A DNA stretch of 6,141 bases from JACRDV01 sp024860865 [NCBI: Methanobacteriota archaeon] (GTDB taxonomy: Archaea > JACRDV01). Below, in pieces: positions 578-5,753 of this stretch (the first letter of the stretch is position 1; every line of letters starts with the position of its first letter). The notes under the pieces are model-generated. The model saw only the letters and a program-made list of their open reading frames with translations, did no database searches and was not told the DNA's origin. A program made the translations under genes and the position numbers. The stretch is taken from the NCBI GenBank assembly GCA_024860865.1, contig JACRDV010000074.1, forward strand, positions 1 through 6,141, read 5' to 3'.

Positions 578-1225
578 ATGCACAGAAAAATTATTTTTTT
601 TATAATTCTTACGGTCAATCTAATTTTGTGCTCCAATATTATAAGTGGGGCCCGATATAGCCCCACTCTAAAAGGTTATTGCAATAATTGCCATATAATC
701 CTCCTAGGAGAACAAGGTGATATACATCAGATCCATTATTTTGGATCGCCACTAATGGAGGCCCGTGATCCTGGGAGGAGAATACCTTGCATTGGTTGTC
801 ACCAAATCGGCACAAAAATACAAGCTCAAGGTATTGCGTGCCATAATCCTGGTCTTATAGATAGTGTTCATAAAAAAACTTGCCTGATTTGTCATAAGCG
901 CATGTTAAACACTGAAAATGAAAGTGCCATTCACGCAATCCATGCTAAAAAGGAATGTGTTCTATGCCACAGAGAGCCGGCAAAACCATCTTCTGAATGT
1001 ACGAGTTGCCATGGAAATGATCATCACAGAGTCCACCAACGCGTTGTAGATAAAATTTGTGTTAAATGTCATGGCGAAATTGAGAAGGCATATATAAACA
1101 TATCAACCTTTGAGCAAACCCAAAAAAATGTGACCGCATATAAATTAAAATCCACTTTGGCGAAGAAGTTCTCATATGTAAAAAAACTAATAAAAAGTAT
1201 ATTAGATAAGTTCTTAGTGTACTAA
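578..1225 (+). CDS. Secreted six-heme cytochrome c with a seventh, degenerate heme motif
   Basis: This 215-residue exported multiheme cytochrome is a likely electron-transfer partner of the neighbouring tetraheme proteins. Residues 1-24 form a signal peptide (MHRK, then a hydrophobic stretch ending IISGA). Six canonical motifs follow: CNNCH 35-39, CIGCH 71-75, CLICH 102-106, CVLCH 127-131, CTSCH 141-145 and CVKCH 161-165. GIACH at 85-89 has the second Cys and the His but lacks the first Cys. Spare histidines come in HxxH pairs (IHQIH 49-53, IHAIH 118-122, HHRVH 149-153) plus H98, enough to supply distal ligands. The pattern resembles doubled-CxxCH/cytochrome c3-like proteins. The C terminus (about 190-215) is Lys-rich and amphipathic with no membrane helix. 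Sequons are few, unlike the neighbours. ATG 578 is the only possible start, because a stop lies in frame at 554-556. No Shine-Dalgarno is visible, the upstream bases being T-rich. The exact family and redox partner are unknown. Confidence 0.9.
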   Translation: MHRKIIFFIILTVNLILCSNIISGARYSPTLKGYCNNCHIILLGEQGDIHQIHYFGSPLMEARDPGRRIPCIGCHQIGTKIQAQGIACHNPGLIDSVHKKTCLICHKRMLNTENESAIHAIHAKKECVLCHREPAKPSSECTSCHGNDHHRVHQRVVDKICVKCHGEIEKAYINISTFEQTQKNVTAYKLKSTLAKKFSYVKKLIKSILDKFLVY

Positions 1226-1287: not shown

Positions 1288-1902
1288 ATGCCAAAAATTG
1301 ATCGGTTAGTTTTGCTTGAAATCGCTGTAGGTATAATGATACTTGGAATTTCATTAGTTAGTTTTAGTAATACATACCAAAGATTTGGACAAGGTCTTGG
1401 ATATGGACATGGTGAATTAGTTCCCATTGAGAAAATCGAAGAAAAATGGTATTCTGCTTTCATGCAAACATTTAGATCATTGTTCTTGGCTTTTATTAGT
1501 GGTTTAATTTTGATGCACGGGATTTTATCCCTTCGAGCCCCAAAGACAGAAGTGCTTTCACCAGAAGAAGTTCCAACAGAGGAACCTATCAAATTAGTTT
1601 GGAATAATCAAACAATCCTGTTAGAACTCTTTCGAGACTTAGCTCCTAAGACATGTAGTATGATATTGAGCTCACTTCCATTTGAATCGGAGATAAATGA
1701 GTTAGAAAATGGGATATGTTTTAGAATAAGCGAGACAATGAGTTTGAAATTTCTGGTCGTAAAAATTGAACCTGAGAACCAAAGGCTCTTGGTAAAAGCT
1801 GGCGATGTGGGTTACTCTCCAGTAACAGAATCAATCTACATTTTCTATGGGAAAGCCCAATCTGTGCTTCCGCTCAATATATTTGCAAAGGTTAAAGGGT
1901 AA
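1288..1902 (+). CDS. Two-helix membrane protein with C-terminal cyclophilin-like (TM1367/DUF3830-type) domain
   Basis: This 204-residue protein has two membrane helices, about residues 7-27 and 63-81. They are joined by a Gly-rich then charged loop (28-62) predicted to face outside. A Pro/Glu-rich linker (84-99) leads to a domain of about 100 residues. That domain has the marks I associate with the cyclophilin-like fold of Thermotoga TM1367 and DUF3830: an opening beta-strand (IKLVWNN), DLAPKTCSMILSSLP at 117-131, and the later AGDVGYSP...IYIFYGKAQS at 171-192. Basic residues at the N terminus and after helix 2 place this domain in the cytoplasm. TM1367-like proteins are not proven prolyl isomerases, so enzymatic activity should not be assumed. 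The gene lies 62 bases after the six-heme cytochrome on the same strand and may be cotranscribed, suggesting a role in assembling or anchoring the cytochromes (inference). ATG 1288 has no clear ribosome site. The domain call is by eye from motif pattern. Confidence 0.75.
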   Translation: MPKIDRLVLLEIAVGIMILGISLVSFSNTYQRFGQGLGYGHGELVPIEKIEEKWYSAFMQTFRSLFLAFISGLILMHGILSLRAPKTEVLSPEEVPTEEPIKLVWNNQTILLELFRDLAPKTCSMILSSLPFESEINELENGICFRISETMSLKFLVVKIEPENQRLLVKAGDVGYSPVTESIYIFYGKAQSVLPLNIFAKVKG

Positions 1903-2136: not shown

Positions 2137-2625
2137 TTAGCTTAAGAATGTAACATTAACTGCAATTGATGTGTGGCAACCTAAACAGCCAAAATTTAAT
2201 GTCCGATTATTTTTTCCTGAGGCATTGAAGGGTTTGTGAATACCGCTTCTTATACCGCCCCATCCTCTAGTGGAATATGGGCTAGTACTATTATAACCTG
2301 GAAAATATGTTGCGTTATGGCATTTTGTGCAATTAATGTAGCTTGCATTATGGCCGCTAACTGAACCGTATTTGATATGACACTCACGGCACTGGGTATT
2401 ATTGGCCTTATTTGATATTTGTTTATAAGCAATGTGAGGCCAATTAACTGTCTGATTTGAACTGTCTATCTCATTTACTATATACTTATGGCAGGCGGTA
2501 CATTTTGGCATTTTATACCAAGTATGAGCTCCAACGTAGTGTGGAAAACTAACTGGTAAGAAAAGTACTAGCAACAAAATTATTGATAGAAGTATTAAAA
2601 TGCTAATGAGGATTTTTCTATCCAT
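2137..2625 (-). CDS. Membrane-anchored tetraheme cytochrome c, third paralogue
   Basis: This 162-residue exported tetraheme cytochrome has four motifs: CTACH 42-46, CRECH 79-83, CTKCH 99-103 and CLGCH 147-151. A leader helix at about 4-26 (after MDRK) ends without an obvious cleavage site and may stay as an anchor. H34, H64, H92 and H130 each precede one CxxCH and match the four spare histidines of copy 2 (H36, H69, H109, H152), so all four hemes are likely bis-His. The shared pattern AHTWYK...CTACH and GCLGCHTSI...NVTF shows it is a divergent paralogue of the two near-identical copies. Nine N-x-S/T sequons imply heavy surface glycosylation. The protein ends 11 residues after the last motif, lacking the long tail of the paralogues. 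The ATG at 2623-2625 is chosen because it begins the basic-then-hydrophobic leader. A frame extension to 2661 would overlap the upstream gene. It sits one base after copy 2's stop, so the two are probably translationally coupled. Confidence 0.9.
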   Translation of the reverse strand: MDRKILISILILLSIILLLVLFLPVSFPHYVGAHTWYKMPKCTACHKYIVNEIDSSNQTVNWPHIAYKQISNKANNTQCRECHIKYGSVSGHNASYINCTKCHNATYFPGYNSTSPYSTRGWGGIRSGIHKPFNASGKNNRTLNFGCLGCHTSIAVNVTFLS

Positions 2626-2626
2626 T

Positions 2627-3289
2627 TTAACCCGCTTTGTCAGAACCTGAGACAGATACATTAAATGAATAGGGATTGGTTGGGGTAATATTTAGCATCT
2701 TTGTGCTGCGGCTATATGTCATGTTTAACTTTTGGTATACGTTACGAAATGTTATATTGAGTTTAATACCGGTGTGACAACCCATGCAACCCAAAGATCT
2801 AGTTTCATTGTTAGCTCCGCTTACCAGTGGTGAGTGAGCATTTCCGCTCAAAATATTGGTGTATGTTGATACTGTTGTGACTTTTTTGGGATTTCCATGG
2901 CAGTATGGGCACCATGCTTGGCTCCTGTTAATAGTAATATTGCTAGGGGATGGAGGAGACTTATGCGTTGCAATATAGTAATCAACCTGGGCATCAGTTG
3001 ATTTATTGGTCTTATTTACAGCCGAACTAAAGCTTCCGTGGCATCTTTTGCAGGTGGCTGAGGCTATATTAGAAGAGCTGTTGTGCGGGTTATTAGCGCC
3101 TGTGGCAGTTGTTGTTGAGGCATCCATTTCATTTTTTATGGTTGTATGGCAGAGTGCACAATCTGGTTGTTCATACAAAGTATGTGAACTAATATAGCGA
3201 CTAATGGCGGGTACTAATGAAAAAATAAAAGCAATTACTAGAGCCAGAAGTATTGCTACTAAAATTGATCTTCTGATATTTTTACGAAT
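2627..3289 (-). CDS. Membrane-anchored tetraheme cytochrome c, copy 2 (start codon uncertain)
   Basis: This exported, probably surface-displayed tetraheme cytochrome is about 220 residues if begun at the ATT at 3287-3289. Residues 1-8 are basic (IRKNIRRS), then a membrane helix spans about 9-30. Heme motifs follow: CALCH 44-48, CKRCH 80-84, CPYCH 127-131 and CMGCH 168-172. Exactly four other histidines exist (H36, H69, H109, H152), one before each motif, fitting four bis-His hemes. Ten sequons and a Thr/Asn-rich tail (173-220) suggest a glycosylated extracellular protein. The first standard start in frame, TTG at 3176-3178, would delete the leader helix and H36, so it is unlikely to be right. 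The frame is open upstream to a stop at 3317-3319 with no ATG/GTG/TTG. An AUU start 10 bases after AAAGGG, or a one-base indel joining the ATG at 3297-3299 to this frame, would restore a full leader. It is about 92% identical in DNA to copy 1 over the shared part. Confidence 0.88.
   Translation of the reverse strand: MRKNIRRSILVAILLALVIAFIFSLVPAISRYISSHTLYEQPDCALCHTTIKNEMDASTTTATGANNPHNSSSNIASATCKRCHGSFSSAVNKTNKSTDAQVDYYIATHKSPPSPSNITINRSQAWCPYCHGNPKKVTTVSTYTNILSGNAHSPLVSGANNETRSLGCMGCHTGIKLNITFRNVYQKLNMTYSRSTKMLNITPTNPYSFNVSVSGSDKAG
2786..3143 (-). repeat. Right arm of the inverted repeat (5' body of cytochrome copy 2)
   Basis: This is the partner of the arm at 1-358, in opposite orientation. 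The perfect tracts correspond to 3060-3143 and 2786-2904. The arms lie inside paralogous genes in the same reading frame, so an exchange between them would keep both frames open. About 2.4 kb lies between the arms. Confidence 0.93.
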
Positions 3290-3475: not shown

Positions 3476-4441
3476 TCAGATTTTTTTACTTATTTTCCTG
3501 CGTCCTCCTACTTTTCTCCGTATTTTTTCCTCTTTTATCGAAGAGATTTCTTTTTTAAGCTTCTCTAGTTCCTGAGAAAAGTTAGCAACCGCCTGCTTGA
3601 AAGTTAACTCTGGAGTTAAGGTTTTACTCGCCATTTCAGCTAGCCCGTCCGCCTTCTCCTTTAAAGCAGATAATTCACCTATAGATGTATCTAAACGAAG
3701 GTTAATTCTATTCACTTTATCCTCAAGTTTACTGATTTCAGATGCTAATAATGTTTTAATCGTTTTTTCATTAATTGATGGAGTGCTTGGAGCTTTTTCA
3801 CTTAATGTTTTAATTTCACTTTTTATTGCATTAATTTCTGGCTTTATTTTCCAAAGTTCTTGCAGTTTTTTGAACTCAGCTGGGTCTATCGGAATTTTTC
3901 CTTCGGTTATAGTTGCTAGATCTTTTAATTTTTCCAACTCATCCCTTAAAACTGTAACTTCCCGTAATAGAAATTTGTAAGAATCGGTAAGTTCTTTAGT
4001 GCTTTCTGGTGAGAAAATAGATAGACCTGCAACTCGAGCTTTCAGTTCATCATATGCTTTTCTTAAGGCTCGAGTTTCTTCCTCGAGCGACTCAATTGAA
4101 TTGGTCGCTGTTACAAATTTGCTTACATAAGTTTCTTTAATCTCCTCAGCCATATCCAAGGCTCGTTTAAGTTGGGCTTGAATATATGGAGATGTTCTTA
4201 GAAATTCTGCAATTTGATTAGTTATTCCCGCTGTCTTTAATTCTTCAATTCGTATAATAATTTCCTGGTTCGATTTCAGCAATTGATCAAAATCAGCTAC
4301 TTTTTTCTCAGTGGACCAAACTCTGTCTCTTACTTGTCCAACTTCCAAGACCAATTTTTTTCGCACATACAGAAACAAAAATATTATCAAAATGATACAT
4401 GTGCCTGCGGAAATTAAAGATACTAATATTAGAAGCTCCAT
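3476..4441 (-). CDS. Membrane-anchored coiled-coil protein with basic C-terminal tail, function unknown
   Basis: I do not recognise this 321-residue protein. It has one membrane helix at the extreme N terminus (about 4-25) followed by VRKK, a charge pattern that predicts N-out with the rest in the cytoplasm. Residues 33-305 are almost all helical and rich in Glu, Lys and Leu, with heptad-like stretches (about 35-75, 95-145, 150-175, 225-270, 285-306) broken by short Pro/Ser segments (145-149, 183-188, 217-223). The tail (about 306-321) is strongly basic (KIRRKVGGRRKISKKI) and could contact nucleic acid or membrane lipids. The ATG at 4439-4441 has a good ribosome site (AAAGGA, five bases away), so the start is firm. 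It lies 195 bases downstream of the PIN membrane gene on the same strand and probably has its own promoter. It may be a structural or scaffold protein. Membrane-tethered coiled coils of this kind resemble RmuC-type or chemoreceptor-like stalks only superficially. Confidence 0.8.
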   Translation of the reverse strand: MELLILVSLISAGTCIILIIFLFLYVRKKLVLEVGQVRDRVWSTEKKVADFDQLLKSNQEIIIRIEELKTAGITNQIAEFLRTSPYIQAQLKRALDMAEEIKETYVSKFVTATNSIESLEEETRALRKAYDELKARVAGLSIFSPESTKELTDSYKFLLREVTVLRDELEKLKDLATITEGKIPIDPAEFKKLQELWKIKPEINAIKSEIKTLSEKAPSTPSINEKTIKTLLASEISKLEDKVNRINLRLDTSIGELSALKEKADGLAEMASKTLTPELTFKQAVANFSQELEKLKKEISSIKEEKIRRKVGGRRKISKKI

Positions 4442-4636: not shown

Positions 4637-5737
4637 TTAACTTGGAGTACTTTCCAAAAGTACTACTCTAACACCTTCAGCCTTTGTGATCATAGCCTGA
4701 ATTTTGTCGCACGTTAGTAGGGTCCCCTTCTTTTTTCTAGCCATATATCGAACCATATCATCAATACCGCCACTCTGGGCCAGTTTAAGCTCCTGAAATC
4801 CAGGCCTCCTGCCGGAAAATATAAGCTTGACCTTTTTTTGATTGGCTAACTCACGTAAACTCTCAAGTTCCTTTAATCCCTTAAAACCTTTTTCATTTCT
4901 TTGGTTAGCAAGGTGCTCAAGTTCTGCAACTGCAGCTCTTGGAACATCAACTAAAATTTTCTCTTTTGCAGCACGCTCTTTAACGTAATTTATAACCATG
5001 CAATTAACTAACGCGCTAGTATCTGGAATAATTATATTTTCAGATGGATAAACCATCAAATATTTTCGAACAAAAAATACCCCAAGTCCTACTAGTGCAA
5101 CTGTTAAAATGCCGAGCGCAATAATCCAACTATACCAAACCAATGATGCCTGGTAGATTATGATTACTCTTGGAGCGCTAAAGGGTGCGATGTTCTCCAA
5201 CGAATAGTAAAGAACCTCTCGATTTCTTTCTGTATAAGATTCTCTCGGGGTGGGATCAACAGATATAATTTTTGTACCCTCTGGAAGCTTAATCCACGTT
5301 TCGAGGCTGAGAGTTGGCCATTCGGCAGAAGTAATAAGCCACTCATGGACGACCCTTTTTAATCCAAACTGTATGGCGCGGCTTGTGGAAATTTCAACAG
5401 TATATGTATAGGTATAACCAGGTTGAATCGGTTTTCTAAACCACCAAGTAATTCGGGTGTAATTTCCAACTTCATCACTTAAGTAGGCAAGCTTCCCTTG
5501 GTCATCAAAAATCTGAATATTTGTAATTTTAAATTCCTTCGGGATTTTCAGCATTCTGCTGCTAATTGGAAGCGTTCCGTTGTTGCGAAGTATAACCGTT
5601 TCTTTTACATGAACGGTATCAGTCCAATCAATGGAAATGATTCGTTCGACTTTAATATTGACCTCATCATAGGCTGAAATAAAAGGACATTGCACGAAAA
5701 GAAGTGCAGCGATCAAAAGAAGTATAATTTTTTTCAG
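4637..5737 (-). CDS. Membrane protein: secreted beta-rich domain, one helix, cytoplasmic PIN nuclease-like domain
   Basis: This is a single-pass membrane protein of about 366 residues. Numbering from the TTG at 5714-5716: a signal peptide ends near 15 (FISA), and an extracytoplasmic domain (about 16-190) of beta-strand character carries sequons N46 and N85. It recalls ribophorin I-like or immunoglobulin-like folds (VKETVILRNNGTLPISS, then Trp/Tyr-rich strands). A membrane helix spans about 193-216. A PIN domain (about 227-357) has the acidic set D232 (IIIPDTSAL), E265 (AVAELEHLA), D319/D320 (GGIDDMV) and D337 (LLTCDK). Its pattern, including GFKGLKELESLREL and GRRP, resembles the PIN domain at the N terminus of archaeal PilT-family ATPases, but no ATPase follows. 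PIN domains usually cut RNA using these acidic residues. A better start is CTG 5735-5737 (LKKIILL added), nine bases after GGAG. Alternatively an A7 homopolymer error hides the ATG at 5742-5744. Substrate and signal are unknown. Confidence 0.85.
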   Translation of the reverse strand: MKKIILLLIAALLFVQCPFISAYDEVNIKVERIISIDWTDTVHVKETVILRNNGTLPISSRMLKIPKEFKITNIQIFDDQGKLAYLSDEVGNYTRITWWFRKPIQPGYTYTYTVEISTSRAIQFGLKRVVHEWLITSAEWPTLSLETWIKLPEGTKIISVDPTPRESYTERNREVLYYSLENIAPFSAPRVIIIYQASLVWYSWIIALGILTVALVGLGVFFVRKYLMVYPSENIIIPDTSALVNCMVINYVKERAAKEKILVDVPRAAVAELEHLANQRNEKGFKGLKELESLRELANQKKVKLIFSGRRPGFQELKLAQSGGIDDMVRYMARKKKGTLLTCDKIQAMITKAEGVRVVLLESTPS

Positions 5738-5746
5738 ATAGCATAT

Positions 5747-5753
5747 CTCCTTT
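5747..5753 (-). promoter_or_regulatory. Shine-Dalgarno site that decides the PIN gene start
   Basis: AAAGGAG on the - strand is the best ribosome site in the window. It is nine bases before an in-frame CTG (5735-5737) but only two before an out-of-frame ATG (5742-5744), and 30 before the first in-frame TTG (5714-5716). It argues that translation begins upstream of the TTG, so the signal peptide includes the basic LKK. Confidence 0.6.

Follow-up and report, generated by a model that had tools for sequence, protein, structure and literature searches.

The window analysed here, the entire 6,141-base contig JACRDV010000074.1 of the archaeon JACRDV01 sp024860865 (Methanobacteriota archaeon, assembly GCA_024860865.1), contains a 366-codon gene on its minus strand (4637-5737). 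The encoded protein consists of a signal peptide, a beta domain predicted to lie outside the cytoplasm, a single membrane helix and a PIN domain reaching up to the stop codon. The fold modelled for the outer half is that of ribophorin I/Ost1, specifically of its membrane-proximal luminal domain, and at the sequence level the PIN half groups with the PINs of archaeal PIN-ATPases (PRK13764/MJ1533). The parts are known, and their combination, an Ost1-like outer domain followed by a membrane helix and a PIN domain, is new. Computation directly gives the order of the domains, the family to which the PIN belongs, the preservation of its invariant residues and, as a model, the outer-domain fold; the broad reading that we favour, an endonuclease tethered to the membrane and positioned by the outer domain, is in our judgement about as likely as not. 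The host assembly comprises 1.54 Mb in 160 contigs (92% complete), and this deep-branching archaeon is the sole member of its phylum among the genomes searched.

The minus-strand frame is open without interruption from position 5752 down to the stop codon at 4637-4639. Residues are numbered according to this translation (P0001, residue 1 being codon 5750-5752); the numbers used in the initial annotation are 12 lower. The outer domain is not preceded by any in-frame ATG. The strongest candidate for the start codon is the CTG at 5735-5737, which is probably the true start: it lies 9 nt after a GGAG and gives the full signal peptide LKKIILLLIAALLFVQCPFISA, while a start at the first TTG (5716) would shorten the signal peptide. 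An ATG near the probable start (5742-5744) is out of frame and, together with a run of seven A in the same region (5735-5752, minus strand), makes a sequence error near the start possible. The features of the gene are as follows.

4637-5737, minus strand: whole gene; open frame with probable CTG start (5735-5737) and stop codon (4637-4639), 366 codons, GGAG 9 nt before the CTG
5747-5752, minus strand: AAGGAG, Shine-Dalgarno-like by sequence
5672-5737, minus strand: signal peptide, residues 6-27 (hydropathy; model helix 2-15; cleavage site by eye)
5141-5671, minus strand: predicted extracytoplasmic ribophorin-I/Ost1-like beta domain, residues 28-204 (AlphaFold2 model, structure matches, profiles of Ost1 and of the outer domains of winged-helix proteins)
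5066-5140, minus strand: single transmembrane helix, residues ~205-229, with basic residues on the C-terminal side (hydropathy; model helix 200-229, corresponding to 205-234 of P0001)
4640-5041, minus strand: PIN domain, residues 238-371, up to the stop codon (Pfam, NCBIfam, PDB and profile matches)
5021-5023, minus strand: D244, catalytic-type Asp, 100% in 52 other PINs
4922-4924, minus strand: E277, catalytic-type Glu, 100% in 52 other PINs
4760-4762, minus strand: D331, catalytic-type Asp, 100% in 52 other PINs
4706-4708, minus strand: D349, catalytic-type Asp, 100% in 52 other PINs

Hydropathy analysis revealed two hydrophobic stretches in P0001, the signal-peptide-like residues 6-27 and residues ~205-229. 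The second is directly followed by RKY, from which an N-out/C-in orientation was predicted by eye, in line with the extracytoplasmic placement of the outer half in the initial annotation. Between the two stretches lies the beta-rich outer half of ~177 residues, and the first strand of the PIN begins only ~10 residues past the membrane helix. The two N-glycosylation sequons pointed out earlier in the outer half are present; as many were found in 265 of 1000 shuffled sequences, so that they are at chance level and carry no weight.

The PIN domain and its relatives

The C-terminal half passed the curated cut-off of the Pfam PIN family (PF01850, 24.5 bits versus 23.6) and matched the NCBIfam model PRK13764 (NF010335) with 106 bits over the PIN part only (residues 226-357 of the 359-amino-acid form). 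The cut-off of the latter, 340 for a whole PIN-ATPase, was missed, and the frame stops at the end of the PIN without a PilT-like ATPase. The PIN of MJ1533 (PDB 3i8o) was matched with an E value of 2e-20, and by homology to this solved structure the C-terminal half is predicted to fold as a PIN. A profile of 14 PINs additionally retrieved TTHA0540 (3ix7, E 1e-10) and two PINc entries (5yww, 5f4h). The initial annotation had thus correctly named a PIN of the PilT-ATPase type that lacks the ATPase. Its further suggestion that the ATPase had been lost or replaced holds for the window protein itself and does not extend to the genome, which retains an intact PIN-ATPase on another contig (C42; 613 amino acids, 43% identical over the PIN). 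This is the only other PIN of the PRK13764 type found in the genome.

The window PIN is 39% identical on average to 52 PINs of PIN-ATPases (best value 46.5%). In a phylogenetic tree, a comparison proposed in the initial annotation, it fell among them on a long terminal branch (1.36). The PIN-ATPases of the Hydrothermarchaeum phylum were nearest (support 94/86, fork drawn open), and a grouping with the PIN-ATPase of the same genome was not rejected (approximately unbiased (AU) test, p 0.25). Ten columns show no variation among the 52 other PINs, and the window PIN matches all of them, D244, E277, D331 and D349 included. Among the 31 columns conserved to at least 85%, 25 are kept and six are changed (V242I, G251C, Q281L, G285R, I322L and I334V). 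The retention of the invariant columns in spite of this divergence is expected of a domain under active-site selection and not of a decaying one. Of the acidic set proposed initially, these four stand in invariant columns, and the fifth member, D332 (D320 in the earlier numbering), does not occupy a conserved column.

With respect to other PIN systems, no Pfam match to a VapBC-type antitoxin was obtained; the gene is flanked by one for a membrane protein with a coiled coil and by a truncated frame. The Pfam scan of the window protein gave no match to a TRAM domain, and it has one membrane helix besides the signal peptide. In searches for a mobile origin, no phage match was found, and the plasmid search yielded one weak match, to the PIN part.

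The outer domain between Ost1 and winged-helix proteins

For the outer half only, an AlphaFold2 model was calculated with an alignment of 55 outer domains plus the window (alignment A3), giving a predicted local distance difference test score (pLDDT) of 87 and a predicted template modelling score of 0.76. When compared with PDB structures, the model matched chains of oligosaccharyltransferase complexes at ranks 1-8 (Z 18.0-19.3). The best match, 6ezn_A, superimposed at 2.1 Å over 174 residues with 20% identity (Z 19.3; chain residues 226-447). The matching chains of 6s7o, 6s7t, 8b6l and 8pn9 (Z 18.1-18.4) are named glycosyltransferase subunit 1, which is human ribophorin I, and we take the four yeast chains among the top eight to be Ost1. 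The next family, domains of M1 aminopeptidases/LTA4 hydrolase, followed at Z 14.8. The Pfam model Ribophorin_I (PF04597) matched neither the window protein nor its genome at E values up to 1, and the A3 profile retrieved from the PDB sequences only matches with E 0.18 or worse, among which oligosaccharyltransferases were absent.

A profile made from eight archaeal Ost1 proteins, restricted to their membrane-proximal domain, scored the window with 46.5 bits at rank 11, after ten Ost1-like frames; this was the top score among frames not themselves Ost1-like, the next being L090, a winged-helix protein of the window's own genome, with 31.0 bits. Eight leave-one-out versions of the profile gave 39.6-53.5 bits for the window and 26.3-39.6 bits for L090, and the best of 300 shuffled sequences reached 6.9 bits. 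The full-length archaeal Ost1 profile matched the human subunit 1 chains at E 2.6e-32. Among these ten higher-scoring frames, L222 taken as a whole protein passes Pfam Ribophorin_I, and L058, which misses it, was counted as Ost1-like by its 87.8 bits alone. In both (L058:160-3105 and L222:802-3279, from genomes G207 and G170, family f38), other outer parts precede the Ost1-like domains in frame; an FKBP-type isomerase domain is over the cut-off in L058 and weakly matched in L222. The resemblance to ribophorin I anticipated in the initial annotation is thus borne out by both the modelled fold and the archaeal Ost1 profile.

The window scored about equally with the second group of relatives, the outer domains of archaeal winged-helix proteins: the A3 alignment without the window row still gave 43.4 bits. 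A further profile of 11 sequences without the window gave 57 bits on the outer domain alone, far above the best of 200 shuffles (4.6 bits). A tree calculated for 47 outer domains paired the window (98/83) with L056 (L224:7994-8701, genome G086, inferred to belong to the Hydrothermarchaeum phylum), a protein that ends after its membrane helix; in a single BLASTP comparison the two outer domains matched with E 3e-7. A branch (95/85) sets off 33 outer domains, all 33 from winged-helix proteins, and the window and L056 fall on its other side, that of Ost1. A clade of the window with Ost1 was not rejected (AU p 0.38), and one of the window with L090 was nearly rejected (p 0.059). The tree has long branches and a midpoint root, L056 and L057 fill 36% and 49% of its columns, respectively, and L056 scored only 8.4 bits with the Ost1 profile. 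Given these long branches, the low identities and the score of L056, the window domain can be placed between the two groups, leaning to Ost1, and not more precisely.

By sequence, the ribophorin-I-type outer domain appears to be widespread in archaea and not unique to the window protein. A query of outer half plus helix had matches in 28 of 394 archaeal genomes including its own, and a Pfam scan of ten matched frames identified five DUF7343 winged helices, two ribophorin I proteins, one transglutaminase and one DUF2207, with one frame lacking a family over the cut-off. With the A3 profile, 196 of the 394 genomes were matched at E ≤ 0.001, compared with nine for PF04597 (seven of them over the cut-off). 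The weak Pfam matches of the 56 A3 members themselves were to DUF2207 (7), Ribophorin_I (4) and DUF5803 (4), others occurring in one or two members each. Of 47 frames from loci fetched by outer-domain homology, 43 carried a winged helix, none a PIN and four neither (one of these cut by a contig end). All loci together comprised 92 winged helices, one PIN (the window) and four with neither, counts that are biased toward winged helices by a scan of contigs for the winged-helix family, which contributed 80 of its 99 confirmed loci. Four winged-helix proteins with this outer-domain family are encoded in the window's own genome. DUF7343 (PF24034) itself was not detected in the window, the nine places listed by the own-genome search all lying outside it. 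One further protein of the genome (L095:649-1704, contig C73) carries, ahead of a DUF7343 winged helix, an outer part of the cell-wall-binding type (CW_binding_2, 61.8 bits), which shows that exchange between outer and inner parts occurs in this genome.

Occurrence of the fusion and integrity of the gene

A search for the same fusion in other archaea, as proposed in the initial annotation, covered a sample of 394 archaea, 23 genomes from the Hydrothermarchaeum phylum and 227 from a phylum presumed to be Asgard; no second copy was present among the matches listed. In the 394 archaea the PIN half had a match in 253, one apiece except in the window's genome, and among the matches listed the frames were 514-1262 amino acids long, bar those of the window, G383, G263 and G202. 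The short PIN frames of G383 and G263, and that of G181 from the Hydrothermarchaeum phylum, turned out to be PIN-ATPases cut by a contig end, and that of G202 a PIN-ATPase broken by a frame change. In the presumably Asgard phylum, 142 of the 227 genomes had a match. Short frames in G488, G491 and G538 were of the PIN-ATPase type without the outer domain, and one in G447 consisted of outer domain and winged helix; those of G396, G413, G349, G434, G314 and G496 were left out of the inspection. Eleven of the matches listed were approximately confined to the outer half, ten of them in frames of 583-699 amino acids, and the two frames opened (G541 and G397) both pass Pfam Ribophorin_I. One of the two matched 8whn_A ('Ribophorin 1 superfamily protein') at 6e-30; from this match and the two Ribophorin_I passes the phylum is presumed to be Asgard. 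Judged by its size, 8whn_A looks like the crystallised Asgard domain of PMC11417166. Pattern searches of genome contigs with P0001 (0 of 20 stretches confirmed) and of viral contigs (0 of 22 and 0 of 2) gave no confirmed stretch.

In titles and abstract beginnings of one open-access library, no description of this fusion was found. Searches of the same library for membrane one-component regulators in archaea and for a membrane-anchored PIN endoribonuclease returned nothing matching, and nothing was found on DUF7343, DUF7345 or HVO_A0114.

An assembly or binning artefact, meaning either a joining of two genes, one for the outer half with its membrane helix and one for the PIN, or a contig that stems from another organism, is in our estimate very improbable. 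The frame is uninterrupted, with the junction located between the membrane helix and the first PIN strand, and the two halves have equal overall GC content (0.39 and 0.40), although the third-position values differ somewhat (0.37 in the outer half versus 0.31 in the PIN). Had the assembly fused the outer half to a PIN-ATPase gene, the frame should continue into the ATPase, whereas it stops at the end of the PIN, and the one other PIN of this type found in the genome belongs to an undamaged PIN-ATPase on a different contig and is 43% identical. An artefact would fit the restriction to one contig of a metagenome-assembled genome. It would also fit the lack of matches to six other window proteins in the 178 kb of the same genome that were searched. 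The tetranucleotide correlation of the window with a pool of 22 own-genome stretches (0.357) is below that of 15 of 17 own stretches (0.239-0.603) and within the values obtained for seven archaeal loci from other genomes (0.280-0.462), a composition compatible with either origin. If the contig were binned wrongly, the host would be a different one, with no effect on the fusion itself.

The window contains an inverted duplication (1-358 versus 2786-3143, 92.2% identical over 358 bases) covering parts of two multihaem cytochrome genes; its 8% divergence argues against a simple fold-back artefact of assembly. CXXCH multihaem cytochromes are encoded at 2137-3178 (minus strand) and 578-1225 (plus strand), with 4, 4 and 6 motifs. 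A cyclophilin-like domain (PF04126, 31.7 bits versus a cut-off of 27) follows two apparent membrane helices, assigned by eye, at 1288-1902 (plus strand). The next gene, ~200 bases downstream of the PIN gene (3476-4441, minus strand), encodes by eye a membrane helix, a long coiled coil and a basic C-terminal tail, and no Pfam or NCBIfam family over the cut-off was found in this protein.

Sequons were more frequent in neighbouring proteins than in their shuffled versions: 9 versus 2.3 in cytochrome cytB (as many in 0 of 1000 shuffles), 10 versus 4.8 in cytC (8 of 1000), 9 versus 4.9 in the frame at the contig start (30 of 1000) and 3 versus 1.0 in cytA (62 of 1000). L056 (within L224:722-10607) is located between two large sequon-rich frames of 2411 and 621 amino acids that appear by eye to be surface proteins, with 79 and 25 sequons versus 22.3 and 9.2 in shuffles (0 of 1000 each). 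Such neighbours, at two loci only, fit a link with glycosylated secreted proteins.

Possible functions and relation to known systems

As a membrane-tethered endonuclease, the protein would span the membrane once, with the Ost1/ribophorin-I-type domain outside and an endonuclease-type PIN on the cytoplasmic side, separated from the membrane by a few residues. If this topology applies in the cell and the PIN is active, it would cut nucleic acid at the inner membrane face, RNA (mRNA or rRNA) being the likelier substrate, and the binding partner of the outer domain would position or gate it. Candidate outer partners are a secreted or glycosylated client, a partner in the translocon or the oligosaccharyltransferase, or an envelope signal. 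The outer domain may act as a sensor that controls RNA cleavage, as the initial annotation had suggested. The PIN was probably copied from a PIN-ATPase and joined to an existing outer domain with its membrane helix. It would thus stand where relatives carry either a winged helix, in the layout of a one-component regulator, or the ribosome-binding helix bundle of Ost1; a DNA-binding-type winged helix and this bundle are the two kinds of cytoplasmic partner seen in outer-domain relatives.

Several points weigh against a tethered endonuclease. The fusion was met once, in one genome and on one 6.1-kb contig, and none of the neighbours of the gene points to a substrate or a signal. The single-sequence AlphaFold2 model of the whole protein, PIN half included, was of unusable quality (pLDDT 42). 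In the literature searched, no report of nuclease activity was met for the PINs of the PIN-ATPase subfamily. PINA, a studied PIN-ATPase, promotes Holliday-junction branch migration in vitro (PMC8775617), from which it follows that the substrate of the PIN could be DNA, or that there is none. A PIN that acts on DNA, or serves as a non-catalytic tether binding nucleic acid or protein, would agree with the long branch and with the alteration of 6 of the 31 columns conserved to at least 85%; with all ten fully invariant columns kept, carboxylates included, we regard this as unlikely.

The two kinds of cytoplasmic partner suggest two more specific functions. In the first, the outer domain would sense a cue from the envelope or from outside the cell, and the PIN would replace the winged-helix output of a one-component regulator, turning a transcriptional response into RNA cleavage. 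We consider this possible, if on the unlikely side: the outer domains of this family mostly precede DUF7343 winged helices in the frames opened, four such proteins occur in the same genome, and the CW_binding_2 protein on C73, in which the same kind of winged helix is joined to a quite different outer part, indicates that parts are exchanged; yet the window lies outside the branch of 33 outer domains from winged-helix proteins, its grouping with L090 is nearly rejected, and sensing is a putative property for every member of the family. A nuclease docked to the translocon or the oligosaccharyltransferase, in which the PIN takes the place of the ribosome-binding bundle of Ost1 and cuts the mRNA or rRNA of ribosomes at the translocon for quality control, would instead accord with the affinity to Ost1 by fold and archaeal profiles and with the sequon-rich neighbours of the window gene and of L056. 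In the same direction, the cytoplasmic helix bundle of an Asgard OST1 was crystallised and pulls down ribosomes (PMC11417166). We rate this function as rather unlikely: only one of the two outer domains of Ost1 is present, Pfam Ribophorin_I misses the window, a clade with Ost1 is merely not rejected, the nearest tree relative, L056, has a low Ost1 score and fills little of the alignment, and the neighbourhood argument rests on two loci. Still more doubtful is the most specific version, an Ost1-like subunit whose ribosome-contacting domain has been replaced by an endonuclease that cuts the RNA of ribosomes docked at the translocon or the oligosaccharyltransferase depending on the state of the secreted (glyco)protein, and which would constitute an independent prokaryotic counterpart, in layout, of RNA decay of the IRE1 type at the secretory membrane.

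In eukaryotic IRE1, an outer domain is connected via one helix to a cytoplasmic nuclease. This is an analogy of layout without homology; the window protein has no kinase and a different nuclease fold. Among proteins with homologous parts, the PIN-ATPases (PRK13764/MJ1533, 3i8o, including PINA) share the PIN with all its invariant residues and differ by their ATPase (and a KH domain, according to the molecule name of 3i8o); the window protein has a signal peptide, an outer domain and a membrane helix in addition. Ribophorin I/Ost1 (PF04597; human, yeast, Asgard) has the same order of outer, helical and cytoplasmic parts and corresponds to the window protein in its membrane-proximal luminal domain, whereas the window protein has one outer domain instead of two, carries a PIN instead of the cytoplasmic helix bundle and is missed by the Pfam model. 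The archaeal winged-helix proteins (DUF7343, PF24034) have the same layout, in which a signal peptide is followed by a homologous outer domain and a single membrane helix; here the PIN replaces the winged helix, and in the tree the outer domain does not fall within their clan. L056, whose outer domain is the nearest, differs in ending after the membrane helix without a PIN. A related PIN is found in the bacterial PIN-TRAM/YacL type, to which we assign TTHA0540 and in which the PIN of YacL is tethered to the membrane by a multi-helix part; the window protein has neither this part nor the TRAM domain.

A 2016 paper named no promising prokaryotic candidates for non-catalytic oligosaccharyltransferase subunits (PMC4973528). 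In later papers, Ost1 was reported from Asgard archaea (PMC10307638, PMC11417166) and also from TACK archaea (PMC11417166). An outer domain of the Ost1/ribophorin-I type, which in the frames opened sits mostly on winged-helix proteins anchored in the membrane, has profile matches in 196 of the 394 genomes. The window protein helps to link the Ost1 and winged-helix groups and bears on the origin of the eukaryotic oligosaccharyltransferase subunit. If its PIN is active, it would be a prokaryotic protein that couples the cell exterior to the cutting of nucleic acid inside via one membrane helix.

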